The notes beneath the pieces were generated by a model that was given only the letters and a program-made list of their open reading frames with translations, was not told where the DNA came from and ran no database searches. DNA of 64,000 bases, taken from the NCBI RefSeq assembly GCF_014859695.1, contig NZ_JACUTS010000003.1:1-64000 (forward strand). The letters are read 5' to 3'. This document shows, piece after piece, positions 1,826-51,777 of this stretch. Each line of letters begins with the position of its first letter. Position 1 is the stretch's first letter. A program made the position numbers and the translations under genes. The DNA is from Sulfurimonas sp. Lineage in GTDB: Bacteria > Campylobacterota > Campylobacteria > Campylobacterales > Sulfurimonadaceae.

Positions 1826-2044
1826 ATGAGTAAAAAGCTTGGTTTAAATATAGGCGGGCGTCGTTTTGATGTTGATGTTGAAGAGGCTTTCGCTGTTTTC
1901 TTGCAGGAGCAGATGAGAAAAGATTTTAACGTAGAGGGCAACAATGATCTAAAGACTCTCATGCAGGCATATGTCCGTAAAACCCATGAACTCTTTCTAC
2001 AAGAACAAAGAATAGAAGAAATAACAAAAAAATTGGAATTTTAA
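1826..2044 (+). CDS. small protein with ZapA-like N-terminus
   Basis: A 72-residue protein whose first 17 residues (MSKKLGLNIGGRRFDVD) match the beta-strand pattern that opens ZapA proteins. A helical region follows, with a C-terminal coiled coil (LQEQRIEEITKKLEF). It is translationally close to the preceding coiled-coil gene (4-nt gap), so the two are probably one operon and may form a complex. If the assignment is right it would bind FtsZ at midcell. It is shorter than the usual ZapA of about 100 residues. Function is inferred, not established. Confidence 0.68.
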   Translation: MSKKLGLNIGGRRFDVDVEEAFAVFLQEQMRKDFNVEGNNDLKTLMQAYVRKTHELFLQEQRIEEITKKLEF

Positions 2045-2076
2045 GACAAATTTATTATTGTATAAGTTAAGAGTGA

Positions 2077-2082
2077 TATAAT
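2077..2082 (+). promoter_or_regulatory. -10 box of the tRNA-Arg gene
   Basis: A consensus TATAAT, preceded by GAG and TG, lies 26 nt upstream of the mature tRNA 5' end. It is correctly placed to start transcription around 2088-2090. No good -35 hexamer is visible, as is common in this phylum. Confidence 0.6.
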
Positions 2083-2108
2083 TTCGGTCTCTTTAATAGA
2101 GATGGTGT

Positions 2109-2185
2109 GCGCTCGTAGCTCAGCTGGATAGAGCACTGGTTTGCGGTACCAGCGGTCACACGTTCAAATCGTGTCGGGCGCACCA
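2109..2185 (+). tRNA. tRNA-Arg (anticodon GCG)
   Basis: A 77-nt cloverleaf is fully visible. The acceptor stem is GCGCTCG/CGGGCGC with one G-T pair and an encoded CCA. The D arm is GCTC/GAGC, the anticodon stem CTGGT/ACCAG with loop TTGCGGT, and the T arm ACACG/CGTGT around TTCAAAT. The anticodon at 2143-2145 is GCG, reading CGC (and CGU by wobble). A20 in the D loop and C35 are arginine identity elements. Most bacteria read these codons with an ACG anticodon edited to inosine, so GCG is notable. The 174 bases between the tRNA and trpA hold nothing I recognise. Confidence 0.95.
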
Positions 2186-2359
2186 TACTACAAAGAAAAC
2201 TCCCCCTAAAATAAACACTTTCAATCAAAATTCACAAACTTCTAAGAACGATAATTCTATTCGACGCCAATTTAATTTTAAAGTGCAACGTTCATGAAAT
2301 TCAATAAGCGGGTAAAGATAGAATGTTAACTGCAAAATGGAGAAATATAAAAAAGAGAT

Positions 2360-3100
2360 TTAGCTATTGATCTCATTTTTTATAATCTGTGCAAGTTCAC
2401 AACACTTCTCTATTTTTTGTTTGTAAGCTAGGGCATCATTTAAAAGTATGTTTACAAAAGCGCTTCCTACTATTACGCCATCGGCACCTTTTACTTTCTC
2501 TTTTGCAGTTTTTTCATTTACTCCAAACCCTACGTATACGGGTGTTTGCGTATGTTTTTTAATTGATGAGAGTATCGGCTGGAGATCTTCAGATGCGCCT
2601 GAGCCTGTTATTCCTGCGTACGCTACCATGTAGATGAATTTTTTGGACTCTTTTACAATCTTCTCTATTCTATCTTCGGTATCGGTCGGTGCGATAAAAC
2701 TGATGTTTGAGATGCTGTTTGAGTCAAAAAGATCTTTGTAGATGAGAGTCTCTTCATACGGAAGGTCTGGGATTATTAGCCCGTTTACTCCTATCTTTTT
2801 GGCGAGCGGAATCAAACTCTTTAAGTCATGTTGGTAAAAGCTGTTAAAGTAACCCATCCAGAGTGTATCGACTTTTGGAGCTACAACTTCTGATATCTCT
2901 AAAAGATGTTTAAACTTAAAACCGAGCTCAAGAGCTTTGTGGTTTGCTTCCTCGATGGATGGACCATCAGCTACTGGGTCTGAGAAGGGAACTCCGAGTT
3001 CTATGGCATCTACGCCGCTCTCCCCTAGAGCCAGTGCTAAGTCAATACTGAAAGATTTTTCCGGGTAGCCGGATGTTATATATGCCACTAGTTTTTTCAA
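2360..3100 (-). CDS. trpA: tryptophan synthase alpha subunit
   Basis: TrpA cleaves indole-3-glycerol phosphate to indole, which passes through the tunnel to TrpB. The 246-residue TIM barrel keeps the catalytic pair E34 and D45 (ELGVPFSDPVADG), 11 residues apart as in the E. coli enzyme. The loop PDLPYEE lies near 120 and the phosphate-binding region GFGVN near 195. The start overlaps the stop of the HPt gene by 4 nt, so the two are co-transcribed and coupled. trpB is not in the window, so the trp genes are dispersed. Confidence 0.95.
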   Translation of the reverse strand: MKKLVAYITSGYPEKSFSIDLALALGESGVDAIELGVPFSDPVADGPSIEEANHKALELGFKFKHLLEISEVVAPKVDTLWMGYFNSFYQHDLKSLIPLAKKIGVNGLIIPDLPYEETLIYKDLFDSNSISNISFIAPTDTEDRIEKIVKESKKFIYMVAYAGITGSGASEDLQPILSSIKKHTQTPVYVGFGVNEKTAKEKVKGADGVIVGSAFVNILLNDALAYKQKIEKCCELAQIIKNEINS

Positions 3101-3501
3101 CTGTTCTCCAAGTCTGGTAATTTAAGTAGAGAATATTTTATATGGCTCAATTCGTTGTCATGTTTGAGGTCGTCTCTCCAGATGGCAAACATATCGCTGA
3201 TGCTTAGCAGCCAGTTTATAGTCTCTTCATTGACGCTCTTATGCTCGGTTCTTATGACTTCGAGCGTATCTTCAACAAAAGCTGCAAGTTTTGCCATTTG
3301 TGCGATTTTTAAATAGCCTGAAGCCGACTTGATATTGTGAAAGATGCGAAAAAGCTCATTTACGCTTCTCTCATACATATTTGGCTTGGAAAGGTCGATA
3401 ATCAGACTCTCCATAAAGTCAACCATCATAGAGTAGTGGTCCAGAAACTCATCGACTATTTCATAATCAAAGTTGGAATCTAAATCACTTCTTACGCCCA
3501 T
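3097..3501 (-). CDS. histidine phosphotransfer (HPt) domain protein
   Basis: A stand-alone 134-residue helical-bundle protein carrying the HPt signature HNIKSASGYL, with the phospho-accepting histidine at residue 55. Proteins of this kind relay phosphate between hybrid kinases and response regulators, or act as docking remnants of CheA P1 domains. It is the first gene of a pair with trpA (4-nt overlap), an unexpected functional neighbour, so its partner kinase is probably encoded elsewhere. There is no kinase or receiver domain on the chain. Residues after about 110 (IWRDDLKHDNE..) extend the bundle. Confidence 0.85.
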   Translation of the reverse strand: MGVRSDLDSNFDYEIVDEFLDHYSMMVDFMESLIIDLSKPNMYERSVNELFRIFHNIKSASGYLKIAQMAKLAAFVEDTLEVIRTEHKSVNEETINWLLSISDMFAIWRDDLKHDNELSHIKYSLLKLPDLENS

Positions 3502-3579
3502 AAAATATTTCTCCTATATGGTCAAAATTATAGCAATATTTAGTTAAAATACCTTTTATTATAAAGAAAGAGTATTTAC

Positions 3580-4371
3580 ATGACTAAGAAAATGACTATA
3601 ACTTCTATCAAAAAAAGCAAAGGTGTATCCAAGCTGGTTATGATAACTGCTTACGATGCGCTTTTTGCGAGATTGCTGGAGCCTAGTTGTGACATAATTT
3701 TGGTTGGAGATAGCCTAAATATGAGCTTTGCAGGCAGAGCCGATACGCTAAGTGCGACTCTAGAGCAGATGATTTACCATACAAATGCCGTCGCACAGGG
3801 CGCTAAAAATAGTTTTTTGATCTGTGATATGCCTTTTGGAACATATACGAACTCCGAGGAAGCTCTGAAAAACTCCATAAAGGTGTTTCAAGAGACTCCT
3901 GTTGATGCCCTAAAAATAGAGGGCGGCGCAGATAAAGCGCACATTATTGCGCATCTTTGCTCAAACGGTATAGCTGTCTGTGGACACATCGGGTTACTCC
4001 CGCAAGCCGTTCGCTCAGAGGGCGGATACAAAGTAAAAGGCAAGAGCCAAGAGGAGCAGGAGCAGCTTATTAGAGATGCTAAAGCTCTAGAGAAGGCGGG
4101 CGTATTTTGTATGGTTATAGAGGGCGTAAAAGCCGATGTTGCGAAAGAGGTTGCAAAGAGTGTAAATGTGCCTGTTATCGGAATCGGTGCCGGAAGAGAT
4201 GTAGATGGGCAGGTTCTTGTTTTTTCGGATATGCTTGGTCTCTTTGAGGAGTTTACTCCTAAATTTGTGAAGAAGTATATGGATGGAGCGGCATTGGTAA
4301 AAAGCGCTATAAGGAGCTACTCCGATGAGGTTAGAACTCTCAAGTTCCCTCAAGACATACACACCTACTAA
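3580..4371 (+). CDS. panB: 3-methyl-2-oxobutanoate hydroxymethyltransferase
   Basis: PanB transfers a hydroxymethyl group from methylene-tetrahydrofolate to alpha-ketoisovalerate, giving ketopantoate for pantothenate and CoA. The 263-residue TIM barrel keeps VGDSLNM near 42, the DMPFGTY loop near 84 with its metal-binding aspartate, the EGG segment near 115, and the VIEGV region near 180 carrying the catalytic glutamate. It is complete. ruvB starts 8 nt after the stop, so panB and ruvB probably share a transcript. Confidence 0.95.
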
Positions 4372-4379
4372 GAGAGATT

Positions 4380-5393
4380 ATGGAAAGATTGGTAGAGATA
4401 GAGAGATTTGACAACGAGGAGAGCTGCGAGATAACACTCCGTCCAAGTGCATGGAGTGAGTATATAGGGCAAGAGCAGATCAAAAAAAACCTCGGCGTGT
4501 TTATAGAGGCGAGTAAAATAAGGGGTGAAGCGCTTGACCACACCCTCTTTTTTGGACCTCCTGGGCTGGGTAAAACCACTTTAGCACTTATTATTGCAAA
4601 CGAGATGAATGCAAATATTAAAGTGACTGCCGCTCCCATGATAGAAAAAAGCGGAGACTTAGCGGCAATCCTCACGAACCTAGAAGAGGGCGACATACTC
4701 TTTATAGACGAGATTCACCGCCTCTCGCCGGCTGTTGAAGAGATACTCTACTCCTCCATGGAAGATTTTCGCATCGACATTATTATAGGAAGCGGTCCTG
4801 CTGCGCAGACCGTAAAGATAGATCTGCCGCGTTTTACTCTTGTGGGTGCCACAACAAGAGCCGGAATGCTCTCCAGTCCTCTTAGAGACAGATTTGGTAT
4901 GAACTTTAGAATGCAGTTCTACTCTGCTGATGAGCTTGCAAAAATTATCTCTCAAGCTTCTAGAAAGTTAAACAAAGAGATAGCGCATGAAGCGTGTGTT
5001 GAGATAGCAAAAAGAAGCCGTGGAACTCCCCGTATTGCGCTTAGACTTCTCCGCCGTGTAAGAGATTTTGCGGATGTGGCAAATGAGAAAGATATAGCAC
5101 ACTCAAGAACAAAATATGCACTCGAAGAGCTGGGCATAAATTCACATGGATTTGATGAGATGGATATAAAGCTCTTAAATCTTCTTGTGGGAGCAAACGG
5201 AAGAGCAATCGGGTTAAGTACGATTGCGGCAGCCCTCAGCGAAGACGAGGGGACTGTAGAGGATGTTTTAGAGCCCTACCTTATCGCCAACGGCTATTTG
5301 GAGAGAACTGCCAAAGGCAGAAGAGCGACCAGAAGTACTTATGAGATTTTAAACATCGAATTTCCATATCAGGAAGGGGGGGGTCTATTTTGA
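4380..5393 (+). CDS. ruvB: Holliday junction branch migration helicase RuvB
   Basis: RuvB is the hexameric AAA+ motor that drives branch migration with RuvA. In 337 residues it shows Walker [10 protein letters not shown] (59-67), Walker B with IDEIHRL (109-114), sensor and arginine-finger segments ([16 protein letters not shown] near 160-175), and the C-terminal winged helix ending in [11 protein letters not shown]. The last codons run through an eight-G tract (5376-5383) that encodes the extra GGG before LF. The stop overlaps the start of the next gene. A slip in this tract would change only the C-terminal tail, which is not conserved. Confidence 0.96.
5376..5383 (+). repeat. poly-G tract at the ruvB 3' end
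   Basis: Eight consecutive G lie 9-16 nt upstream of the TTG start of the next gene and inside the last codons of ruvB. The tract plus the preceding GGAA is the only purine-rich ribosome-binding region for that start. Tracts of this length are known slippage sites in Campylobacter and Helicobacter; variation here is not shown by a single sequence. Confidence 0.7.
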
Positions 5394-17616: not shown

Positions 17617-19734
17617 ATGCAATTACCCTTAAGCGATAGTGAAGTTGTAGATATATCTGATGATGAACTTTATTGTAAAAAACTTTATAGTGGTCTGTTG
17701 CAGGCTCAAGCTCTTGCGCATATAGGGCATTGGGAGCTTGATTTGGTAAACAACTCTCTATATTGGTCTGATGAAGTTTACCGTATTTTTGGTCTTGAGC
17801 CCCAAGAGTTTGAGGCTACTTATGAAGCGTTTTTAAAATATGTTCATCCCGAAGATATTGACATGGTAAACAATATGTACATGTCATCCCTTAAAGAGAA
17901 GCGCGGTTACTATGTTGAGCATCGCATTGTTCGTGAAAATGGCGAGATTGGGTTTGTCGAAGAGAGTTGTGAACATGAGTTTGACAAAGATGGAAATCCA
18001 CTGAAATCAATCGGTACGGTTCATGATATAACAAGACGCAAATATGCCGAAAATGAGCTTGTTTTGGCTTCTGCTGTTTTTGAAAAGATGAACGACGGAG
18101 TTCTAATAACAGATGCCGCTCAGCAAATAATTACCATAAATAGCGCATACAGCGAAATGTCCGGATACAACATCGAAGATATTAGGGGAAAAACTCCAAA
18201 CACATTTAGCTCTGGCTGGCATGACAAGCTCTTTTATAAAAATCTGTGGAGGGAGCTCAATAAAGAGGGGCACTGGAACGGTGAGATAATAGATAGACGA
18301 AAAAACGGTGAGCTCTATACCGCGGAGCTAAACATTATTGCTCTGCATGACAAAGAGGGCAATCTAACCAACTATATCTCCATAGTCAACGACATAAGCG
18401 AGAAGAAGAAAAAAGAGAGTTTGATCCATAATCTCGCCTATTTTGACGCGCTTACAAGCCTTCCAAACAGGGTTTTGTTTCAAGAGCGTGTTATAAATAA
18501 GATACCCTCACTTCAGAGAAACTCAAAAAAAATGGCGCTCTTTTTTATAGATATGGATAACTTTAAAAATATAAATGACACATTTGGGCACTTTACCGGG
18601 GACAAATTTTTAATTGAGGTGGCAAAATCTATCAAAGCAACTCTTCGCGATGAGGATACTTTGGCTCGCCTTGGCGGTGATGAGTTTACGGTAACGCTCG
18701 GTGATGCGGAATCTGTTTTAGACATAGCAGTGGTAGCAGAAAAAATAATAGAGAGATTTAGATCACCTGTAATAATAGAGGGCAGAGAGTTTTATACGGG
18801 AGCAAGCATCGGAATTAGCATCTATCCTGATGATGGAACAACTTATGAAGAGCTTGTTAAAGCAGCCGATACAGCGATGTATCAGGTAAAAGAGTCAGGA
18901 AAAAACTCCTATCAGTTTTATACGCAGTCAATGAACGAGAAGATAACGGAACGCTCGCTTATCGAGAATGACTTGCGCAGCGCAATAAACAGAAATGAGC
19001 TCTTTTTGGAGTACCAGCCAAAAGTAAATCTTAGGACAAAAAAAGTTTACGGTATGGAAGCGCTTATAAGATGGAATCACCCTGATATTGGGCTTATAAG
19101 ACCGGACAAATTTATAGGCATATCAGAAGAGACTGGTCAGATATCTCAAATAGGCTTATGGGTTGCAAGACAAGCAATAAGCGATGCAAAAGCGCTTTAT
19201 GACGAGGGAAAGAGGCTTGTTGTATCAATAAATGTGTCAAGCAAGCAGCTAAATGACGACTCCTTTATAAACGACATTTGCGCCATCGCGGATAATATCG
19301 GACTTGATAAGGGTTATATTGAGCTTGAAATTACAGAGAGTCATATTATGAAGGATGTAGACAAGGCGCTCTCTATCTTAAACGAGCTAAGCGAAAAGGG
19401 TTTTAAACTCTCTATTGATGATTTTGGAACGGGTTACTCCTCCCTTAGTTACTTAAAGAAACTACCTGCAAAAACGATTAAAATAGACCGCAGTTTTGTG
19501 CTTGATATTGACAAAGATGAGGATGACCGCTCCATCGTTGCGGCTATCATCGCAATGGCAAGATCTCTTGGCAAAGATGTTATTGCAGAGGGCTCAGAGA
19601 CGAAAGAGCATATAGAAGCACTGAAATCTCTGCACTGTTACCAGATTCAGGGATACTACTTCAGCAAGCCACTTAGGATAGAGAAATTTAGAGAGTTTAT
19701 TAAAGATTTTAAGGGTGATGGCAAGTCGGTATAG
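17617..19734 (+). CDS. PAS-PAS-GGDEF-EAL cyclic di-GMP protein
   Basis: A 705-residue soluble signalling protein. Two PAS domains (about 30-125 and 150-265) are followed by GGDEF (275-435) with an intact GGDEF motif near 353 and an EAL domain (450-695) with EALIRW near 480 and DDFGTGYSS near 605. The catalytic signature motifs of both enzymes are present, so it may make and break c-di-GMP, with the PAS domains selecting the activity. There are no membrane spans, so the signal is likely intracellular (redox, oxygen or a small ligand). GAGGAG precedes the ATG. It is monocistronic, followed by repeat copy 3. Confidence 0.93.
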   Translation: MQLPLSDSEVVDISDDELYCKKLYSGLLQAQALAHIGHWELDLVNNSLYWSDEVYRIFGLEPQEFEATYEAFLKYVHPEDIDMVNNMYMSSLKEKRGYYVEHRIVRENGEIGFVEESCEHEFDKDGNPLKSIGTVHDITRRKYAENELVLASAVFEKMNDGVLITDAAQQIITINSAYSEMSGYNIEDIRGKTPNTFSSGWHDKLFYKNLWRELNKEGHWNGEIIDRRKNGELYTAELNIIALHDKEGNLTNYISIVNDISEKKKKESLIHNLAYFDALTSLPNRVLFQERVINKIPSLQRNSKKMALFFIDMDNFKNINDTFGHFTGDKFLIEVAKSIKATLRDEDTLARLGGDEFTVTLGDAESVLDIAVVAEKIIERFRSPVIIEGREFYTGASIGISIYPDDGTTYEELVKAADTAMYQVKESGKNSYQFYTQSMNEKITERSLIENDLRSAINRNELFLEYQPKVNLRTKKVYGMEALIRWNHPDIGLIRPDKFIGISEETGQISQIGLWVARQAISDAKALYDEGKRLVVSINVSSKQLNDDSFINDICAIADNIGLDKGYIELEITESHIMKDVDKALSILNELSEKGFKLSIDDFGTGYSSLSYLKKLPAKTIKIDRSFVLDIDKDEDDRSIVAAIIAMARSLGKDVIAEGSETKEHIEALKSLHCYQIQGYYFSKPLRIEKFREFIKDFKGDGKSV

Positions 19735-31758: not shown

Positions 31759-33102
31759 ATGGCAAAGCTAGAAAATTATTTAACGCAAATAGCGGATCTT
31801 TACGAGAAGAGCGATGATTGTCAAAAAAGTTCTATTGTGGCTGCAATAGAGACAATTTTAAACGCTAAAAAAGATGTAGCTATAGAAATAGATGAGATTT
31901 CGGCTCTGCCAAATAGAGCATCTTTGATGAGAGAGATTTCGCTGCTTCAGGATGAAGCTATGCTTGTAATACTCCATATAAATCAGATTGAGGCAATAAA
32001 ACAGCTCTACGGCTTTGAGATGGTTCAAGATATTATCTCAAATAAAGCAGAAACTCTAAAAAATCTTATAAAAGACAGCGATGCATCCCTCTATAGTATA
32101 AATCTTCAGAAGTTTGCACTATTGGTGAAGAGTAAAAAACTTTTTGATAAGTATCTCTCGATTTTAAAATTTTCTATTTTCAATAATATAGAGAGCTTTA
32201 CATATACAAGCTGTGACGGCTCAAGAGTAATCTCCGATTTTACTGCAGGAATCTCTTACGGCATAGAGCATCTTCATCACAGTGCAAATGTGGCACTCCA
32301 AGAGGCGATGGTTTCAAAACTCTCGTATAAGATATATAATATAAATCCAGAGTGTACGACTTTAGAAAAATCTAACCTAGATAAATATCAGGTATATAAA
32401 GATGCCCTCCACAACGGATACATAGTTCCATATTTTCAGCCTATAATAGACTCAAGAGACGGCTCCATCATGAAGTATGAGGCACTTGCAAGGCTTCAGC
32501 TTCCAGATGGCAGAGTCGTCCAGCCGTATGATTTTTTAAGCATAGCAATCGAAGATAGAACTTTTGAGTTTTTTACCAGACAGATGATGCAAAAGGTCTT
32601 TAACGTATATGATAAAACGTATGTCGAAATTTCTATGAATTTGACATACGAGAATATAAAATCTCAGACAATGCTTGAGTATATAAAAAACAGGCTCGAG
32701 AAGTACGGCGGCGAGAGAATTACGTTTGAGATTGTGGAGACAGAAGAGATAGACGACTATGAAGTAGTAGAGAATTTTATTTTAATGATCAAAGAGTATG
32801 GATGCAAAATATCTATAGATGATTTTGGATCAGGTTACTCAAACTTTACAAATCTAATAAAGCTAAATATAGATTTTATAAAAATTGACGGCACACTTAT
32901 AATAAAATTGCTTAGCGATGAAAAAGCAAGATTGATGGTTCAGTGGCTTATACAGTTTGCAAAAAACATAAATATAAAGAGTATTGCAGAGTTTGTCTGC
33001 TCACATGAGATATCTGAGTGCGTAAAAAAGCTTGGAGTTGATTATCTTCAGGGGTATTATCATGGAGAGCCAAAAGAGGCTAAATTTTACGGATTAGCGT
33101 AA
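31759..33102 (+). CDS. EAL phosphodiesterase with degenerate GGDEF domain
   Basis: A 447-residue soluble protein. Residues 45-200 match the fold of GGDEF domains (SALPNRASLMREISLL opening), but the signature is replaced by NLQKFAL, so cyclase activity is not expected. The EAL domain (about 210-445) keeps YEALARL near 240 and SIDDFGSGYSN near 350, consistent with c-di-GMP hydrolysis. There are no membrane spans. A degenerate GGDEF often binds GTP and tunes the EAL domain. Monocistronic; convergent with the chemotaxis pair. Confidence 0.9.
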   Translation: MAKLENYLTQIADLYEKSDDCQKSSIVAAIETILNAKKDVAIEIDEISALPNRASLMREISLLQDEAMLVILHINQIEAIKQLYGFEMVQDIISNKAETLKNLIKDSDASLYSINLQKFALLVKSKKLFDKYLSILKFSIFNNIESFTYTSCDGSRVISDFTAGISYGIEHLHHSANVALQEAMVSKLSYKIYNINPECTTLEKSNLDKYQVYKDALHNGYIVPYFQPIIDSRDGSIMKYEALARLQLPDGRVVQPYDFLSIAIEDRTFEFFTRQMMQKVFNVYDKTYVEISMNLTYENIKSQTMLEYIKNRLEKYGGERITFEIVETEEIDDYEVVENFILMIKEYGCKISIDDFGSGYSNFTNLIKLNIDFIKIDGTLIIKLLSDEKARLMVQWLIQFAKNINIKSIAEFVCSHEISECVKKLGVDYLQGYYHGEPKEAKFYGLA

Positions 33103-38808: not shown

Positions 38809-40170
38809 ATGATTTTTCCAAAGGTAGGAAGTATAGCGACAACTTCTGTTATCTCCATAGAGATAGATAGCAAAATTTCCGATGCTATAAAAAAGATGTT
38901 TAGTAATGATCACAGAAATATATTGGTCACGGATGGCAACGTTTTTCGTATTATGAGAGTGACGGATATTTTAAATATGAAGTCGAGAGGCGTAGATATG
39001 GAGAGCTCTTTGAAAAACGTAGAGTTGTCTTTGGTTCCTATCGTAAATAAAGAAAGAACAGTTCTGCATACGCTTGAGTACTTAAATTGTGAAGTAGAGT
39101 ATATATGCGTGGTTGATGATGAGGGTGAGCTTTATGGACTTATTTCTCATACCGACATTGTAAGCAGCATAGACCCCGATACTCTGATGGATAACTTTTG
39201 CCTTCTTGACTTTTTAAAATTGGGAAAAAGAGCTAAATGGGTAAGCAAAGATCTGAAAACTTCTCAACTTCTTTGTGATATGGCAAAAAAATCTTTTGAG
39301 AGCGTGATAATCGTTGAAGATTTAAAACCTATTGGAATATTTACTACCAAAGATGTTATTCGTGTTATTGAAAGAAACGATGATTTAAATAAACCTATCA
39401 GTAGCTATATGTCTTCGCCCGTAGAGACCATAGGAAAAGATTGCTCGGTTAAAGAGGCTTTGGAGTTTCTAAAAAAGAAACATTATAAAAGAGTAGTTGT
39501 TGTTGATGATGAGGGAAAAATATCCGGAGTCATATCTCAAAAAGAGTTGATTGCCACAACCTACTCAAGATGGGCACTCTTAACAAAAGAGTATCAAAAA
39601 GAGCTCGATGATATTAATACCGACCTTGTGAAGAAAAATATAAAATACAAAGAGATGGCATCGAGAGACCAGCTTACAAATCTATACAATAGACATAAAT
39701 TTTTAAAGCTGTTTCAATCATCGCACCGTACAATGGTGGAGAGAGAAAATGAGATGTCTCTAGTAATGGTTGATATAGACAATTTTAAAAACATAAACGA
39801 CACACACGGTCATAATGTCGGAGACAGTGTAATAGTTAAGATTTCTCAGCTTTTAGTCGAGAAGCTAAGAAATATAGATATAGTATGCAGATGGGGAGGC
39901 GAGGAGTTTGTTATTCTTCTTCCTGCTGTAAATATTGATAATGCTGCAATGCTTGCTGAAAAACTAAGAAGCTCTATAGAGGAGTTGGAGATAGAAGATA
40001 TCGCAAATGTTACGGCAAGTTTCGGAGTCTCTTGCGTACAAGTAGATGATGATATTCACAATGTTGTAAATAGAGCAGATATTGCTCTTTACTCTGCCAA
40101 AGCTTCGGGAAGAAATTGTGTAGAAAAAGCGAGCTCAAGAGCTGCTTTAGAGGAGAGCTTCCACAATTAA
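38809..40170 (+). CDS. diguanylate cyclase with four CBS motifs
   Basis: A 453-residue soluble protein. Two tandem CBS pairs (about 5-120 and 135-250, with LVTDGNVFRIMRVTDIL, VVDDEGELYGLISHTDIV, IIVEDLKPIGIFTTKDVI and VVVDDEGKISGVISQKEL) precede a GGDEF domain (about 285-440). That domain has MVDIDNFKNINDTHGH and an intact GGEEF near 363. CBS pairs bind adenosyl nucleotides, so c-di-GMP synthesis may answer energy charge or S-adenosylmethionine. It lies 16 nt after folP and could be co-transcribed with that block. Confidence 0.92.
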   Translation: MIFPKVGSIATTSVISIEIDSKISDAIKKMFSNDHRNILVTDGNVFRIMRVTDILNMKSRGVDMESSLKNVELSLVPIVNKERTVLHTLEYLNCEVEYICVVDDEGELYGLISHTDIVSSIDPDTLMDNFCLLDFLKLGKRAKWVSKDLKTSQLLCDMAKKSFESVIIVEDLKPIGIFTTKDVIRVIERNDDLNKPISSYMSSPVETIGKDCSVKEALEFLKKKHYKRVVVVDDEGKISGVISQKELIATTYSRWALLTKEYQKELDDINTDLVKKNIKYKEMASRDQLTNLYNRHKFLKLFQSSHRTMVERENEMSLVMVDIDNFKNINDTHGHNVGDSVIVKISQLLVEKLRNIDIVCRWGGEEFVILLPAVNIDNAAMLAEKLRSSIEELEIEDIANVTASFGVSCVQVDDDIHNVVNRADIALYSAKASGRNCVEKASSRAALEESFHN

Positions 40171-43071: not shown

Positions 43072-43132
43072 GTTTGCTAAAAAAATAGCTTATATTGTAT
43101 CATTACATATATAGATGTAGATGGGAGAAGAG

Positions 43133-45142
43133 ATGAAATTTTTAGCTTGGATAGGTGCTATTATAGTAGCAGTGGCGGCAACTATATATGTTGCGGCTTT
43201 TACGAAAGTGGGCAATGGATTGGTAAAGCCTTTTATAGAGCAGAAAATCAAAGAGCAGACAAAGCTGGAGAGCTCGCTTCATGAGTTTCGTCTGAGCATG
43301 AGTAATATTGAGATTATTTTGGAGCTAAACAGGGAGAATATAGTTAAAGTAAAAGGGGAGTACTCTCTTTTTGCACAATCTTTTGAGATCTCTTACGATG
43401 TGGAACTTAAAAATTTACAAAGTTTAAAATCTCTCACTAAAACAGAGTTAAGAGGAGATTTTGCAACAGAGGGAACTGTTCGCGGAGATATGGCTTTTAT
43501 GAAGATAGAGGGTAAAAGCAGTGTCGCGCAGAGCGATACATCTTACTATGTAGAGCTGAGCGAATTGAACCCGACATCTATTATCGCAAAGATGAAGGGA
43601 GCAAAACTTGCTTCGCTTCTCTTTATTGCGGCACAAAATCCCTACGCAACTGCAGAGATAGATCTGGATATAAACTTCAGGGATATATCGCCGCATAAAA
43701 TGGATGGAGAGGTGCTCTTAGTTAGCAAAGAGGGCAAGATAGACCCTAAATACATGCTAAGCGATTTCAACGTTAGTATCCCGAAAACCTCTTTTTCTAT
43801 GAATTTGGATGCAAAACTAAAAGGCGATGATGTAGAGTATAAGTGTGAGTTGCACTCAAATCTTTTTAAAATCAACTCATCGGGATTGGTCGTGCCGCAA
43901 CCTCTAAAAGTTGATTTGAAATACGCACTAAACATTGAAGATCTTGAGGTGCTAAAACCTCTTACAAAGGCTGATGTAAGGGGTGCTCTTAAACTAAGAG
44001 GAGACGCCAAAGGAACCAAAGAGAGACTTGTAGTGGCGGGAATAAGCGATTTAGCTTCGTCCGACACGGTTTTTGAAGCCATTTTAAAAGATTTTGCTCC
44101 CGCATCACTAAAAGCAAAAATAGTAAATCTTGATATCGCAAAACTTCTCTACATGGCAAAACAGCCGCACTATACGGATGGACTTCTATCCGTGGATGCG
44201 GACATCAGCGATGCTAGAGAGGAGACGCTTAGCGGAAAAATAGATACCACTATAACAAAAGGCCTTCTTGATTCAAAATATTTGAGCAAAATCTATGAGT
44301 TCACATCTCCAATGCCTAGGACTACATTTAACCTTGCGGCAACGACACTGCTTAAAGGCAATACTGCCGATACCAAAGTCGATTTAAACTCAAATATAGC
44401 AGACCTTGATATAAAAAGCGCAAAATTTACTATAAACGATGCTTCTCTAAAAAGCGACTATAGAGTAAACCTGCCAGATCTTGATGCTCTCTTTTTTGTG
44501 ACAAATCAGCACATGAGAGGCTCTCTTGTGGCAAATGGCGATATTGTAAAGGCAAAAGATTTGGATGTAACATTTCACTCAAATATTGCCAAGGGGAAGG
44601 TAAGCGCAAAGCTTCATAATGATGAGCTTCGTGCGGATTTGAGTTCGGTAAGCGCAAATGGGCTACTCTATATACTTCTCTATCCACAGATAGCGGATGC
44701 TTCGTTAAATGCAAAAGTAGAGTACAATCTGGCGCAAAGCAGAGGTACTGTTGGCGCTCAAGTGACAAATGCTGTTTTTGTAAAAAATCAGACGTTTGAC
44801 CTTATTAAAGAGTACACAAAAGTTGATATGTATAGAGAGCATTTTAACGGGGATCTAAACGCGAAGATAGATAAAGAGAATATTTTAGCCTCAATAGACC
44901 TTCGCTCAAAAGAGGCTTCAATAAAAACAGCAGCGACAAAGCTCAATACAAAAACCAACGTGATAGATACAGATATAACGCTAAGAGCAAAGAAAAATGA
45001 GATTAGCGCAAAACTTAGCGGGGATGTAAATGCACCTAAAATCAGTGTTGATTTAGAGAAGCTTATGCAGTCTCAGACCGGCAAAGAAATCGAGAAGAAA
45101 ATCGAAAAAGAGATAAACAAACTCTTTAAAAAACTCTTTTAG
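43133..45142 (+). CDS. AsmA/DUF748-like large periplasmic protein
   Basis: About 669 residues with one N-terminal membrane span (about 5-25), then a long beta-rich periplasmic region. Three related blocks of roughly 80 residues recur near residues 100-180, 290-370 and 470-550, each pairing an 'L.GD....G' strand with a 'LLYxxxxPxxxxxxL.xD' segment. This repeated beta architecture and the amphipathic C-terminus resemble AsmA/TamB-type lipid-handling proteins. I set the start at ATG 43133 because GGGAGAAG lies just before it and overlaps the upstream ATG 43121. Divergent from grpE, convergent with the next operon. Confidence 0.75.
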   Translation: MKFLAWIGAIIVAVAATIYVAAFTKVGNGLVKPFIEQKIKEQTKLESSLHEFRLSMSNIEIILELNRENIVKVKGEYSLFAQSFEISYDVELKNLQSLKSLTKTELRGDFATEGTVRGDMAFMKIEGKSSVAQSDTSYYVELSELNPTSIIAKMKGAKLASLLFIAAQNPYATAEIDLDINFRDISPHKMDGEVLLVSKEGKIDPKYMLSDFNVSIPKTSFSMNLDAKLKGDDVEYKCELHSNLFKINSSGLVVPQPLKVDLKYALNIEDLEVLKPLTKADVRGALKLRGDAKGTKERLVVAGISDLASSDTVFEAILKDFAPASLKAKIVNLDIAKLLYMAKQPHYTDGLLSVDADISDAREETLSGKIDTTITKGLLDSKYLSKIYEFTSPMPRTTFNLAATTLLKGNTADTKVDLNSNIADLDIKSAKFTINDASLKSDYRVNLPDLDALFFVTNQHMRGSLVANGDIVKAKDLDVTFHSNIAKGKVSAKLHNDELRADLSSVSANGLLYILLYPQIADASLNAKVEYNLAQSRGTVGAQVTNAVFVKNQTFDLIKEYTKVDMYREHFNGDLNAKIDKENILASIDLRSKEASIKTAATKLNTKTNVIDTDITLRAKKNEISAKLSGDVNAPKISVDLEKLMQSQTGKEIEKKIEKEINKLFKKLF

Positions 45143-47052
45143 CAAGATTTAAAAAGCTCATCACTCTCTACAAGATAGTTTTTTGGCTCTGAGATGTAGT
45201 ACCCCTGCATAAAATCGATATCGAGAAGGAGCAGCTTTTCATATACCTCTTTTGAGTGGACATACTCTGCTATTGTTTGCATATTGCTCTGCGCAGCAAA
45301 GTGTATGATGCTCTTTACGACTTTAAAATCTTTTGTGTTTACATCAATGTTTTTGATAAGAGAGCCATCGATTTTAAGAAAGTTTGCTTCTACATCTATA
45401 ATAGTTTTAAAGTTTGAGTAGCCGCTTCCAAAATCGTCAATAGAGACTTTTGCCTTAAGAGAGTGAATAAGGTTAATCTTCTGCTTAAAGAGCTCTATAT
45501 CATTAATCTCATCGCTCTCAAGTATTTCAAACGTAACGCGGCAGGCAAGATGCTGGTTATGTTTTAGGTTGTTGATAATAGTCTCTTCTATATCCGGATT
45601 TATGAGGTCGGAAAAGTTCATGTTTATGCTTACTAGCTTATTGTTCTTTTTAAAGTTTTCAAAGACTACAAGAAGAATTCTTTGGGTTAGCTTGTAGTGT
45701 ATGTTAGTCTCTTTTATCAGAGGTAAAAAGGCAAGAGGAGGAACTATCTTGCCATCTTTTGCTATTATTCGAACCAGTGCCTCATACTTAAATATTCTGC
45801 TGTGTTTGTAGTCGTAGATAGGTTGATAGTAGCAGATAACCCTGTCGTCATCAATAGCCTCTTTTACGAAACTAATGTCGGTAGAGGAGGAGAGCTCTTC
45901 ACTAATCTCTTTTTCATCATAACAGATAACTTTGTTTCTACCGCTTTTTTTGGCTATATAGAGCATTTTATCGGCTCTTTTTATCGCCTCTTGGAGGTTT
46001 TTTTCTAAATATGGATTTTTATGCAGACCGATTGAGACGCTTACGTTGATCTCATGACCTTCGTACAAAAAATGCTCTTTGAGTATATTTTTCCTTACTC
46101 TTTCGCATATATCTATGTCTGACTTTGTTTTGCTTCGGTTATTTATAAGAAGTATAAACTCCTCTCCGCCGTATCTCACTAAGATATCGCTGTCCCTGAT
46201 AGAGTTTTTAAATACTTTGCTTGTACGAGAGAGAATGTAGTCTCCTGTCTTATGACCGTAGGTGTCGTTTATGATTTTAAATTTGTCCAAGTCAAGCATT
46301 GCCAAGGAGTAGTGCGATAGATTTAAGAGCGGTGCAGTCTCTTCAAGATAGTTTCTGTTGAATGTTTTTGTAAGAGGGTCGGTAAATATTTTTTTTCTGG
46401 TAACAAAGTAGTGAAATATCTGCATTACAGTCATAGCCATCAGAAGAAGAATAAAGATGATTAAAACTACAAAAAATGTCTCCAGCGGCTTGATGGATTC
46501 GAGAATAATTTTTTGGATATTTGTTGTAATGTCAATATTGAATACTCCTATGACATTTCCGTTATTTGTTATAGGGTAGAGATATGTAAGGTATAGGTTC
46601 TCAATATCGTTTAGTTGAATAATCTGTGGTTTTTTTGTCGTGTAAAGAGTGCTATACTCTGCAGAGCTTACATCAAATTTTTGATTAAAATTTGCTTTGT
46701 CGGTTTTTGATGCATCAAGAAGAAATCTAAATTTATCCTGCTCATCTTTGTATAAGATATACGCATATTTTACATTTGATGTAAGCATTAAGGAGATGAT
46801 ATGTTCATACTCGGCTCTTACATACTCTTTGCTAAACATAGAGAATAGATCTTCGGAGGTCTTAACATCTGAATTGTCAAGTATATCTTTTTCAATATTT
46901 TGTAAGATGTAAGAGATCTGCTCTATTTGGTGGCTTTGTATGCGCTTAAATATATCATCTTTGGTTTTTGTTATGTCGGTATAGACATAGGCAAAAAAAA
47001 GACCGAGCATAAAGAGCAGAAAAAATATTCCAAACTCTCTCTTTTTTACCAT
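45139..47052 (-). CDS. membrane GGDEF-EAL cyclic di-GMP protein with periplasmic sensor
   Basis: A 637-residue inner-membrane protein: span 1 (about 8-26), a periplasmic Cache-like sensor (27-185), span 2 (about 190-212), GGDEF domain with GGEEF near 295, and EAL domain with YEALVRI near 421 and SIDDFGSGYSN near 527. Both enzymatic signatures are intact. It is the last gene of a three-gene operon after a TonB-type receptor and a small periplasmic protein, with a 7-nt overlap to the latter. That suggests it receives a signal from the envelope. The C-terminus overlaps the convergent AsmA-like gene by 4 nt. Confidence 0.92.
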   Translation of the reverse strand: MVKKREFGIFFLLFMLGLFFAYVYTDITKTKDDIFKRIQSHQIEQISYILQNIEKDILDNSDVKTSEDLFSMFSKEYVRAEYEHIISLMLTSNVKYAYILYKDEQDKFRFLLDASKTDKANFNQKFDVSSAEYSTLYTTKKPQIIQLNDIENLYLTYLYPITNNGNVIGVFNIDITTNIQKIILESIKPLETFFVVLIIFILLLMAMTVMQIFHYFVTRKKIFTDPLTKTFNRNYLEETAPLLNLSHYSLAMLDLDKFKIINDTYGHKTGDYILSRTSKVFKNSIRDSDILVRYGGEEFILLINNRSKTKSDIDICERVRKNILKEHFLYEGHEINVSVSIGLHKNPYLEKNLQEAIKRADKMLYIAKKSGRNKVICYDEKEISEELSSSTDISFVKEAIDDDRVICYYQPIYDYKHSRIFKYEALVRIIAKDGKIVPPLAFLPLIKETNIHYKLTQRILLVVFENFKKNNKLVSINMNFSDLINPDIEETIINNLKHNQHLACRVTFEILESDEINDIELFKQKINLIHSLKAKVSIDDFGSGYSNFKTIIDVEANFLKIDGSLIKNIDVNTKDFKVVKSIIHFAAQSNMQTIAEYVHSKEVYEKLLLLDIDFMQGYYISEPKNYLVESDELFKSC

Positions 47053-47480
47053 GCTCTCTCCTCTTTGTATGCGTCCAGCTCACTGGAGACTCTTATGTTT
47101 TGAAGCTCGGTTCTCGGCTCTACTATTACAATGTTTGGTCTCCCTTTTTTCCAAAAAAATGCACCGAAGCTCTCTGGAATATCTTTTAGCAGTTCATAGT
47201 TAAGAACAAAAATGGGCTTGTTTTTGCAATCTTCATCATCTTGTATGTTTTTTTTGTGCGCTACTACAATCAGAGTCGCCACTGCAGGATTGTCGCTAAC
47301 TGAAAGAAAACCGTTTTTTTTAAACTCTAAGAGCAGCTCTTCATCGTCCGTCCATATGGTTATTGTCTCATTAATAGAAACATTTGAAAATACCTTCTCC
47401 AAAATCTGTGCTTGAATATCGACTCTATGGTCAGCAAATGAAGCAATTGTTAAAAAGAGAAAAAGTATAAGCGCTCTCAT
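47046..47480 (-). CDS. small periplasmic protein, possibly YfiR-like
   Basis: A 144-residue protein with a clear signal peptide (ALILFLFLTIASFA, cleaved near 17). The mature part alternates strands and helices with ATLIVVAHKK near 67 and a C-terminal GRPNIVIVEPRTELQNIRV block. I do not recognise the family with certainty. Size, location and the final 'G R . . I . . . ... L . . . I . . S . E L' pattern resemble YfiR/DUF4154 proteins, periplasmic repressors of a diguanylate cyclase. It lies between the receptor (adjacent, no gap) and the GGDEF-EAL gene (7-nt overlap). A lone cysteine is near residue 82. Confidence 0.75.
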   Translation of the reverse strand: MRALILFLFLTIASFADHRVDIQAQILEKVFSNVSINETITIWTDDEELLLEFKKNGFLSVSDNPAVATLIVVAHKKNIQDDEDCKNKPIFVLNYELLKDIPESFGAFFWKKGRPNIVIVEPRTELQNIRVSSELDAYKEERAW

Positions 47481-49376
47481 TTAAAATGTATACTCCGCCG
47501 TAAACAGAACTCTTCTGTCTATCGTCGATACATCGACACCGCTTATAGGTGTTTTTGAAGCTCTGTCAAAAATATTTTCCGCCTTTAGTTTTAACTCTGT
47601 CCTTTTACTTAGTCTGTATATTGCTCCAAATGAGTAGTCATAACCTCTTTTTACGTCAACTCCGTCTTGAGTTGTATATTCTGCTCTGTAAAGTAGCTCA
47701 TTATAAATATCAACCTCTCCTAAGGTGTTGAAAAGCTGCAAAGAAGCCCCCTCTCGCGGAGAGTAGTAGCTGTCTCTAAACTGTCTGTATATCTCAACTT
47801 TTACTCTGTTATCAATATTGAAATTGTGCTCTACATTTGCAAAAAAGAACTTGAATTTATTTTTATCATCACTGTTTACATAGATGCTCTCTGCCGGATT
47901 TGTCATGTTGTTTTCAAATATGATTGCGTTATCCGCTTCGCTCTGTCCAAGTCCAAAACCATAAGTAGTGCCATCTCTTACATAAATAAGTTCGGCAGAA
48001 AGCGTGAGAATTTCGGCGCTCCGTAGGTCTGGATTGACTCTGTAGTTTGGTGAATAAGTTGTTTGTAGAAATGTAGGGTAGAGGTAGCTCTGCATCGCAA
48101 AGAGCTTAAACGTGAACTCATCAAAAATTCCTACATAACCCGCTCTTAGTATCTGCTCCGTCGATGATTTGTCTAAGCTGTTTTCATAATAATCAACCTT
48201 TGCACTTATCGATATAAGGTGGTTTTCGTTTATATTGTAGAGATTCTCCGCATAGAGCATGTAGATATCGAGTTTTTTCGGTCCCCAGTTCATTGCAGTA
48301 TCTATACCGCCTACTATATAATCAGTTATACCGAACTTTTGATGCTTAAGCTGTGCTCCCATAAAGAGTTCGTTGTTGTCATTTATAAACCTCTTCTCTA
48401 TGGAAGCACTATATACTTTTGTGCTTATGGCGGTATCTAACTGTTGTGTAAAAGGAGCGCTCATCCCAGGTAGCGGTATACCAATAGAGTCTTCGTTGTA
48501 GATTTCAAATTTTTCATAAGATGCGGTAAGCATTACTTTTAGATTGTTTTTAAAGTATTTGGTAATATGGGTATAAATATCGCCCGTGTGAGTGTATCCG
48601 TCTTTTGTTGCCATTCCCAGTCCGCTGAAAATATCATACTTTTCATTGATAGCTCCAAATTCAATGTCGTAATCATCTTTTTTTGAAAATTTAAGATACA
48701 ACTGACCCCTTACTCCGTCTCTTGAGAGTTCATTGCCGCCAATAGTATAATCTTCATAGTTGTTTTTTCTTAAATCAATATTTGCCAGATATGAGTACTC
48801 ATCAAAAACTTTTGCTTCAACCGCCTGAAGCGTTACACTGCCGAGCGAGTCAATGGAGGCTTGCACGGATGTACTGTTTTGGCGAGAAGGATCTTTTGTA
48901 AAGAGTTTTATAAGCAGAGTTCCGGGTTCGTTTCCGAATGTAACTGAGTTTCCGGCTTGGTAGATCTCTATATAGTCGATAAAGTAGAGACCCATTCTTC
49001 CATACTGTACCAAAACATTGCCAAGCGTTGCCGAGTTTAGTTCATGAGAGTTAATGTAAACTTTTGTAGTCAGGGAAGACATCTGCGATTCGCCGCTTCT
49101 AAGAAGCGTAGTCATACCGTTTCTCCTTGTCCCTATAGTAAAGAAACGAAGGGTTTTTAGCACATCGTTAAGAGTGTATGCTTGCATTTTGTCAAGTTCT
49201 GCTCGGGTTATAACTCTTATATGACCCGCACTCTCTTTTTTTGTGTGAAGAAATGGCTCTTCCGCGCTTTTATACTCTTTAAGAAGAGTCTCGAGAGAGA
49301 GTTCTTCCGCATACATAAGAGACGATAACAGCAAAAAGAGCGCAAAAACATACACCGACATCCCCCTAACCACCAT
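47481..49376 (-). CDS. TonB-dependent-receptor-like outer membrane protein
   Basis: A 631-residue protein with a signal peptide (about 1-22), a plug domain (about 45-155: VITRAELDKMQAYTLNDVLKTL, then IDYIEIYQAGNS) and a barrel of about 22 strands ending in the aromatic residue F (FTAEYTF). A standard TonB box is not obvious after the signal peptide; the mature start is ELSLETLLKEYKSAEE. It heads an operon with a periplasmic protein and a c-di-GMP enzyme and is not next to any transport gene. It may sense a ligand rather than import one. The substrate is unknown. Confidence 0.85.
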   Translation of the reverse strand: MVVRGMSVYVFALFLLLSSLMYAEELSLETLLKEYKSAEEPFLHTKKESAGHIRVITRAELDKMQAYTLNDVLKTLRFFTIGTRRNGMTTLLRSGESQMSSLTTKVYINSHELNSATLGNVLVQYGRMGLYFIDYIEIYQAGNSVTFGNEPGTLLIKLFTKDPSRQNSTSVQASIDSLGSVTLQAVEAKVFDEYSYLANIDLRKNNYEDYTIGGNELSRDGVRGQLYLKFSKKDDYDIEFGAINEKYDIFSGLGMATKDGYTHTGDIYTHITKYFKNNLKVMLTASYEKFEIYNEDSIGIPLPGMSAPFTQQLDTAISTKVYSASIEKRFINDNNELFMGAQLKHQKFGITDYIVGGIDTAMNWGPKKLDIYMLYAENLYNINENHLISISAKVDYYENSLDKSSTEQILRAGYVGIFDEFTFKLFAMQSYLYPTFLQTTYSPNYRVNPDLRSAEILTLSAELIYVRDGTTYGFGLGQSEADNAIIFENNMTNPAESIYVNSDDKNKFKFFFANVEHNFNIDNRVKVEIYRQFRDSYYSPREGASLQLFNTLGEVDIYNELLYRAEYTTQDGVDVKRGYDYSFGAIYRLSKRTELKLKAENIFDRASKTPISGVDVSTIDRRVLFTAEYTF

Positions 49377-49409: not shown

Positions 49410-49985
49410 TTAGTTTAGACTTGCATCTGCGAGTGTCAGGCAAAATAGAACTTCTATTTTTTCTTTTTGCAAAGCAGCAACTGCCTGAGTGAGAGTCAAG
49501 TTTGTCGTAATAATGTCATCAACTAAAATCACGCTCTTTTGCTTAAACTCTTTTAGCACAAAGTCTCTAGGATTTAGGAGCCTGAACTCCTTTGTTTTTC
49601 CGGAGTAGCTAACCCTGTTCTTTGCCCTTAGTTTGCCAAAAAGAGGCTCAATGGAGTTGCTTTTTAGAGCTTTGTTCAAAATAGCCGTATGCGAATATCC
49701 AGACCGAGCGGAGTCATCAACCCCAATTGAGACGACTTTATGCGGGTACTCAAACGCAGAGGCAAATTTTGCAATGGAGTTTTTTGCAAGAATGGAGTAG
49801 ATGTAGTAGCCGACATCCGTATGTTTTGTGTGAAGTAGCTCTTTTATGTCGCTGTATTTGTAAAATGAGATAACTTCAATGTTGCCGAGGATTTTTCTTC
49901 TGTAGATGGATGGGGCTAAAAAGTTGTTTTGACACTTTTTGCAGATGTGTAAAAATGAGAGATTTTCACACATCAAGCAGCGCAT
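49410..49985 (-). CDS. comF: ComF family phosphoribosyltransferase-like protein
   Basis: A 191-residue ComF-type protein. An N-terminal cysteine cluster (MRCLMCENLSFLHICKKC, CxxC pairs at 3-6 and 15-18) probably binds zinc, followed by a phosphoribosyltransferase-fold domain with the PRPP-binding motif VILVDDIITT near 152-161. ComF proteins support DNA uptake in naturally competent bacteria; with dprA at 27.5 kb this hints at competence. It follows lepA with a 1-nt gap. Confidence 0.88.
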   Translation of the reverse strand: MRCLMCENLSFLHICKKCQNNFLAPSIYRRKILGNIEVISFYKYSDIKELLHTKHTDVGYYIYSILAKNSIAKFASAFEYPHKVVSIGVDDSARSGYSHTAILNKALKSNSIEPLFGKLRAKNRVSYSGKTKEFRLLNPRDFVLKEFKQKSVILVDDIITTNLTLTQAVAALQKEKIEVLFCLTLADASLN

Positions 49986-49986
49986 T

Positions 49987-51777
49987 TTAGTCCATCTTCA
50001 AAACAGACATAAATGCCTCTTGCGGCAATTGAACTTTCCCTATGGATTTCATTCTTTTTTTACCGGCTTTTTGTTTTTCAAGCAGTTTTCGCTTACGCGT
50101 TATATCCCCGCCGTAACACTTGGCGGTAACATTTTTACCCATACTTTTTACAGTCTCTCTGGCAATTACCTGCGAACCCAAAGATGCTTGAACAGCCACT
50201 TCAAAAAGCTGACGAGGTATAATCTCTTTCATGTTTTTAACTAAAACACGACCGCGTGAGAGTGCCTGATTGCGGGGGACAACGATACTCAGCGCATCTA
50301 CTGCCTCTCCGGCTACTTTTATATCAAGTTTTACCAAGTCGCCGACTCTAAACTCAATCGGCTCATAATCAAAACTTGCGTAGCCTTTAGATATTGATTT
50401 TAGCTTATCATAAAAGTCCATGACTATTTCGTTCATAGGCACTTCATACTCAAGCATAACCCTGTCTTGGTTAAGATAGGTCATTTTTGTTTGAGTGCCA
50501 CGCTTATTTATGAGAAGAGTTATAATATTTCCAAGATATTCACTCGGAGTAATAACGGTAGCTCTAATGTATGGTTCTTCGATTCTGTCTATACGATTGA
50601 CTTCCGGAAGCTCTGAAGGGTTATGAACATCAATTTTTTCGCCGTTATTGAGATAAACCTGATAGATAACAGATGGTGCGGAAGCGATTAAATCAAGGTT
50701 GAATTCACGCTCCAGTCTCTCTTTTACAACCTCCATATGAAGCATGCCCAAAAATCCGACACGAAAACCAAAACCCAGAGCCAGAGATGTTTCAGGTTGA
50801 TAAGATAGAGAACTGTCATTTAGTCTTAGCTTATCAAGAGCATCGCGTAAATTTTCAAATTCGTCCGTATCTATAGGGTATATTCCCGCAAAAACAAAAG
50901 GCTTTGCCGGTTCATACTCTACAACAGGCTCTTTTGTAGGGTTTTTTGCATCTGTAATAGTGTCCCCGACATTTACAACATGTACCTCTTTTAAGCCAAG
51001 TACGACTATGCCAATCTCTCCGGTTTTTATAACAGGAGTCTTTTTGCGTTTAAGCGGATGCGGGTACATCAAATCAAGAACCTGATGCTCTTCCCCGTTA
51101 CTCATGATTTTTACAAGTTGATTTACTTTTATCTCGCCGTCGAAAACTCGGACAAGACCTAGCGCGCCTAAGTAGGGGTCAAACCATGAGTCGTAAATAA
51201 TGGCTTTAGTAGGAGCTTTTGGATCTCCAATGGGAGCCGGAATTCTATCTACGATTGCATCGATAAGAGCGCGGATTCCGACACCTGTTTTAGCTGAGAC
51301 TAAAACAGCATCTGTTGCGTCTATTCCTATGCTTGTCTCAATCTCTTCTGCAACTTTTACGGGGTCTGCAGCAGGTAAATCTATTTTGTTTATAACAGGA
51401 ATAAGCTCTAAGTTGTTCTCCATTGCCAGATAAACATTTGCAATAGTCTGTGCTTCCACGCCCTGAGCAGCGTCAACGATAAGAAGAGCACCGTCGCTTG
51501 AAGCCAGAGATTTGCTGACCTCATAAGAGAAGTCGACATGTCCGGGAGTGTCGATAAGATTTAAGATGTAGTGCTCGCCGTCTTTAACATAGTCAAGTCG
51601 CACGCTTTGAGCTTTTATGGTAATGCCGCGCTCTTTTTCGATGTCCATCGTGTCCATCATCTGCTCGCCAAGCTCTCTATCGCTGACTGAGCCGCACTCT
51701 TGAATGATTCTGTCGGCTAAAGTACTTTTGCCGTGGTCGATGTGTGCAATGATAGAAAAGTTTCTTATGTTTTTCAA
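49987..51777 (-). CDS. lepA: elongation factor 4 (LepA)
   Basis: A 596-residue translational GTPase that back-translocates or remodels ribosomes. It has G1 AHIDHGKST (11-19), G3 DTPGHVDF near 76-83, G4 NKID near 131-134, the EF-G-like domains, and the LepA-specific C-terminal domain ending [19 protein letters not shown]. It is complete. comF is co-transcribed downstream. Confidence 0.97.

Follow-up and report, generated by a model that had tools for sequence, protein, structure and literature searches.

A probable trans-envelope signalling cassette of a TonB-type receptor, an adaptor of predicted YfiR fold and a c-di-GMP enzyme in Campylobacterota

Can a receptor in the outer membrane set the level of cyclic di-GMP (c-di-GMP) inside the cell? 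The question is raised by three genes on the reverse strand of a 64,000-nucleotide stretch of a Sulfurimonas sp. genome (contig NZ_JACUTS010000003.1, positions 1 to 64,000; hereafter the window), which encode a TonB-type receptor, a small, putatively secreted protein, here called the adaptor, and an inner-membrane enzyme with GGDEF and EAL domains. The initial annotation, made from the sequence alone, had described three tightly packed genes, and their coordinates were found exactly as claimed: the adaptor gene begins on the base that follows the receptor gene (a junction of 0 nucleotides) and overlaps the enzyme gene by 7 nucleotides. We found that the three parts are encoded side by side and that Campylobacterota keep them so, although in some loci the output is replaced by a GGDEF-only protein or a histidine kinase. 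We infer that signalling runs from the receptor through the adaptor to the c-di-GMP enzyme, and we regard a three-protein trans-envelope signalling cassette as the probable identity of the locus.

The adaptor was found in 29 of 60 related genomes by a single-sequence search, and a profile of 32 relatives detected it in at least 87 of 397 Campylobacterota genomes and at least 24 of 68 genera, these counts being lower bounds because scoring was limited to some ten first-look candidates in each genome. When 60 adaptor neighbourhoods of about 8.5 kb were compared, the gene immediately preceding the adaptor encoded a receptor in 58, broken copies and copies cut by a contig end included, and an output gene adjoined the adaptor in 58. 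The output gene lay directly downstream and carried the same Cache-like sensor domain in 56 loci; the order was changed in L098, and the output of L112 was a histidine kinase with another sensor. The survey of co-occurrence proposed in the initial annotation thus revealed that the three genes are kept together. Two tandem receptor genes precede a single adaptor and output in L095 (337-4082). The genes flanking the cassette belonged to 38 and 40 unrelated families, and this diversity indicates that what is conserved as a unit is the trio. The host genome holds five plug-domain receptors in total, yet 58 of the 60 adaptors lie directly behind such a receptor, which excludes a chance association. 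The Cache-like domain occurred 36 times in the 60 related genomes, always clustered with the adaptor (in changed order in G039), and the adaptor occurred without it once, beside a kinase in G032. A weak adaptor match in G043 was judged spurious, as it lay antisense inside another gene, and viral contigs yielded no adaptor relative. Among 63 Cache-like outputs, comprising those of the compared loci and L031-L037, an EAL domain was present in 50 (three of them without a GGDEF motif), whereas 11 had GGDEF alone (in one case truncated where the contig ends) and 2 were histidine kinases.

These counts bear on an alternative in which an ordinary transport receptor is co-transcribed with a c-di-GMP enzyme that has nothing to do with it, the small protein being accessory to one or the other. 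Since the cassette follows a comF-like gene (49410-49985) and lepA (49987-51777) on the same strand after a gap of 33 nucleotides, it may have no transcript of its own, which is consistent with such an arrangement. However, receptor and adaptor are retained together in 58 of 60 loci of varied context, the sensor domain was never without the adaptor in the 60 genomes, and proteins of the DUF4154 type also adjoin receptors, as described below. A mere shared transcript, already disfavoured on these grounds, is therefore very unlikely.

What kind of protein is the adaptor? No match was obtained in Pfam (DUF4154/PF13689 included), NCBIfam or PHROGs, and a sequence search of the PDB gave nothing usable. 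Its 82 relatives matched no family consistently, and DUF4154 was not among the families listed (25 of 33). Throughout the alignment the proteins begin with a short run of hydrophobic residues, as signal peptides typically have, and the hallmark of the family is GAFFWxKGRPNI. In a profile alignment only, and with uncertain register, this hallmark hairpin overlaps the YfiR strand bearing Phe151, one of the residues of the YfiR pocket (Phe151, Ile169); the conserved face of YfiR lies in its C-terminal part, including strand beta-7 and a pocket over Phe151 (PMC4655355). Two cysteines are present in the mature part of 52 of the 82 relatives. The window adaptor keeps only the second (C85), and because P65 replaces the first, at a site where 68% of the family have cysteine, the putative disulfide is missing from it.

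The profiles of the adaptor and of YfiR-type proteins match disjoint sets of proteins. When the adaptor was compared with 40 YfiR-type sequences by hhalign after removal of signal peptides, the score was 29.3 and the probability 39%; hhalign comparisons with YfiR-type sequences gave scores of 29-31 and probabilities of 39-50%, apart from the one with an extended profile given below. Controls scored lower: 14 decoy families reached at most 18.0, and reversed profiles gave about 12-16.1. After YfiR of Pseudomonas aeruginosa and Escherichia coli had been added to the profile, the score was 24.9 and the probability 15%. An AlphaFold2 model of the mature adaptor, built on 8 sequences with the signal peptide removed, had a predicted local distance difference test score (pLDDT) of 89.2 and a predicted template modelling score (pTM) of 0.85. 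The nine best Foldseek matches of this model were all YfiR chains (E 1.6e-4 to 1.1e-3, probability 1.00). By VIA-align, Pseudomonas YfiR was the closest structure in the whole PDB (Z 11.6, root-mean-square deviation 2.9, 122 of 128 residues), followed by 3LKV and 3LFT with Z of about 10, which are published Dali neighbours of YfiR itself (PMC4655355). The adaptor as modelled thus has the YfiR fold. Since the link in sequence is weak, though above the controls, and the fold matches, we name the protein a YfiR-fold adaptor and not a member of PF13689. The initial annotation had called it YfiR-like; this stood for the fold, whereas the profiles gave no DUF4154 membership. That annotation had also set out beforehand that separate inheritance of the three genes or an unrelated fold of the small protein would count against it; what was found is joint conservation and a predicted fold that is that of YfiR.

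The receptor matched the Plug family above the Pfam cut-off. Three other receptors of the host genome carry a recognisable TonB box (LDSISVTATK, LSPLKITST and LPKISIEST), whereas none was recognised by eye in the cassette receptor, in agreement with the absence of an obvious box reported in the initial annotation. At the expected site of the box, the alignment of 58 cassette receptors revealed a conserved segment with the consensus L..LL..Y.....LS..TK.E.AG......R.DL..MQ, in which T45 is 98%, E48 89%, G51 100% and M64 100% identical. We hypothesise that this periplasm-facing segment may contact the adaptor.

Hydrophobic stretches of the enzyme lie around residues 5-27 and 182-218. Its GGDEF and EAL domains, as named in the initial annotation, were recovered by Pfam; the Cache part was matched by dCache_1 at a sub-threshold 0.0036, and for this reason we term the sensor Cache-like. 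Alignment of the domain revealed five invariant residues, D103, R109, D113, P160 and D174.

By analogy with the YfiBNR system, the cassette could work as follows. The receptor would bind a ligand outside the cell, and the ligand-induced change would reach its conserved periplasmic N-terminal segment, where the adaptor would be captured or released. Otherwise the adaptor would sit on the Cache-like domain and lock the enzyme in a single state, in the manner of YfiR with YfiN, and the receptor would take the part of YfiB. The net output could be synthesis or breakdown of c-di-GMP, as both catalytic domains look intact in sequence, and the level would change without import of the ligand. In the form of this mechanism that the analogy suggests, the adaptor would be repressive and the receptor would release it upon binding its ligand.

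The modelled fold also brings in a ligand relay, in which the receptor would be a selective importer that feeds the sensor, and the adaptor would take the ligand passing the receptor and hand it on to the Cache-like domain. Binding of small ligands is common among Cache domains, and the invariant residues of the Cache-like domain include charged ones. The adaptor is similar in fold to a single lobe of a substrate-binding protein, and its next-best structural matches are such proteins, including the Trp-bound 3LFT. A relay by energised import is nevertheless difficult to reconcile with a receptor that has no recognisable TonB box and with a cassette that has no inner-membrane transporter. Alternatively, the adaptor could be an activator or scaffold, and the enzyme would be active only when the adaptor bridges the receptor and the Cache-like domain; kinase outputs, whose on and off states are not predictable, are attached to the adaptor as well. 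YfiR is the closest structural match, and among relatives by fold it alone has been characterised; it is a repressor (PMC3375315), and this argues against the relay as well as against an activator or scaffold. We consider the relay improbable, and the activator or scaffold equally so.

Several points weigh against the signalling cassette. The contacts between its three proteins are hypothetical and drawn by analogy, and a comparison of distance matrices (mirror-tree) indicated co-inheritance of all parts with no specific adaptor-sensor or adaptor-receptor signal. A receptor is missing from two of the 60 loci, L101 and L103, the latter a divergent orphan; L103 has no output either, and an unrelated gene occupies the output position in L108. 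The similarity in sequence between adaptor and YfiR is weak, the absence of a TonB box is a judgement by eye, and the fold model came from 8 sequences, two of its five models being poor (66), as was a separate model with the signal peptide left on (64). The hallmark motif is eroded in the orphan adaptor of L103 (G169:C1:1299400-1307900, 4062-4481, reverse strand), which is possibly a relic.

Is the arrangement confined to the adaptor family described here? Few genomes of the phylum match PF13689 itself (7 of 150), and a profile built from PF13689 matches and E. coli YfiR found YfiR-type proteins in 57 of 397 genomes. Nearly all of 40 YfiR-type neighbourhoods had an adjoining receptor, and in most of them a gene for a GGDEF protein or a kinase was present as well. 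Their sensor domains differ, the Cache-like domain being present in 1 of the 40 loci. The host genome itself holds a second cassette (L168, G000:C151:24000-32237, from 2025-4711 onward) with a plug receptor, a YfiR-type protein of 181 amino acids and a GGDEF-EAL enzyme. In four loci with an adjoining TonB-type receptor, a YfiR domain is fused with the output in one chain, as YfiR-GGDEF in L171, L187 and L190 and as YfiR-histidine kinase in L175. Outside Campylobacterota, where plasmids were sampled, three Caballeronia records contained a receptor, a YfiR family protein and an EAL-domain protein in that order. These were the three triads among nine plasmid receptor loci inspected; in one of the nine, a kinase-type gene and a regulator adjoined the receptor with no YfiR, and in five neither YfiR nor an output stood beside it. 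The plasmids contained no relative of the window receptor at E 1e-5. YfiR matches were also present on enterobacterial plasmids.

The initial annotation had seen in the locus a candidate for an undescribed system. The arrangement proved to be broader, because the same architecture with DUF4154-type proteins occurs throughout the phylum and also on plasmids of Caballeronia. The cassette is accordingly a variant of the YfiR-YfiN module and not wholly new, and the earlier reading as a whole was partly supported. An adaptor family that had no annotation and a conserved stretch of the receptor came to light here, and the proposed cassette would let an external molecule set c-di-GMP without being imported. 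More generally, TonB-type receptors might form a class of non-transporting outer-membrane sensors to which c-di-GMP enzymes and kinases respond via YfiR-fold adaptors. This route would be distinct from FecIRA, and its adaptors would belong to two families or more, among them the DUF4154 type and the GAFFWxKGRP family, paired with different sensor domains; we give this generalisation about even chances.

The coordinates of the cassette and its domains are collected in Table 1. Downstream, a convergent and unrelated gene (43121-45142, forward strand) overlaps the end of the cassette by 4 nucleotides; it encodes a protein of 673 amino acids with an N-terminal hydrophobic segment and no Pfam match. 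With the comF-like gene and lepA on the other side, no transport gene was found among the adjoining genes of the window, in agreement with the initial annotation. Three more GGDEF and/or EAL proteins are encoded on the forward strand of the window (38809-40170, 31759-33102 and 17617-19734).

Table 1. Positions in the window of the cassette genes and of the domains and segments within their products.
Feature	Position	Strand	Basis or detail
TonB-type outer-membrane receptor, plug and barrel, 631 amino acids, cassette gene 1	47481..49376	-	open reading frame; Plug PF07715, E 2.3e-6; homologue directly upstream of adaptor in 58/60 loci
Conserved periplasm-facing N-terminal segment of receptor, residues 28-65, at expected TonB-box site	49182..49295	-	LETLLKEY..TKKESAG..RAELDKMQ
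Putatively secreted adaptor, 144 amino acids, predicted YfiR fold, family without Pfam or NCBIfam model	47046..47480	-	open reading frame; predicted structure and PDB comparison
Hallmark hairpin GAFFWKKGRPNI of adaptor, residues 106-117	47130..47165	-	mostly 68-98% conserved per residue, 82 family members
Inner-membrane c-di-GMP enzyme, 637 amino acids, Cache-like sensor, GGDEF and EAL, cassette gene 3	45139..47052	-	open reading frame; Pfam
Periplasmic Cache-like sensor domain, about residues 29-181	46510..46968	-	dCache_1 sub-threshold; alignment
GGDEF domain, GGEEF and RxxD I-site intact in sequence	45931..46386	-	PF00990, E 4.5e-35
EAL domain, EALVR and DDFGSG motifs intact in sequence	45184..45864	-	PF00563, E 2.3e-55

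Of the known systems, YfiBNR of P. aeruginosa and E. coli (YfiN is also called TpbB or DgcN, and YfiR belongs to DUF4154/PF13689) is similar in that the gene of a YfiR-fold periplasmic protein stands beside that of an inner-membrane GGDEF enzyme, with an outer-membrane component in the same gene group. In that system YfiR holds YfiN, and YfiB sequesters YfiR at the outer membrane (PMC3375315, PMC4655355). The cassette differs in having a plug-domain TonB-type receptor where YfiBNR has the Pal/OmpA-like lipoprotein YfiB, an adaptor outside PF13689 with its own hallmark, and a Cache-like sensor where YfiN has a PAS domain, no match to which was found on the cassette enzyme by Pfam. Modularity of the YfiR-YfiN core has been described, its distant relatives swapping outputs for GGDEF-EAL proteins or kinases, and almost all distant YfiNR systems in a 2012 survey had no YfiB (PMC3375315). 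To the question of what such YfiB-less modules sense through, the genome context offers an outer-membrane receptor as an answer in one phylum. The TonB-type receptor as a partner appears to be new, since we found no paper on a system of TonB receptor, YfiR and output in the open-access literature searched, which leaves aside most subscription papers and all preprints. The Caballeronia triads, of which no functional account was found in the open-access papers searched, have the same gene order and mostly tight junctions, but their adaptor is annotated as YfiR family and their hosts are Betaproteobacteria.

Two further systems use an outer-membrane protein in signal perception. NsrA of Sinorhizobium meliloti is an outer-membrane barrel that reportedly takes part in signal perception and would feed inner-membrane adenylate cyclases; the second messenger there is cAMP and not c-di-GMP, and we know of no YfiR-like part in that system. 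FecA-FecR-FecI resembles the cassette in its TonB-type receptor acting as sensor and its periplasmic relay to the cytoplasm, and FecIRA-type ECF242 systems have been reported in Campylobacterota (PMC9239204). In contrast to these, a Pfam search found no STN signalling domain on the cassette receptor, no FecR or sigma-factor gene occurs among the neighbours of the cassette, and the output is a second-messenger enzyme or a kinase.

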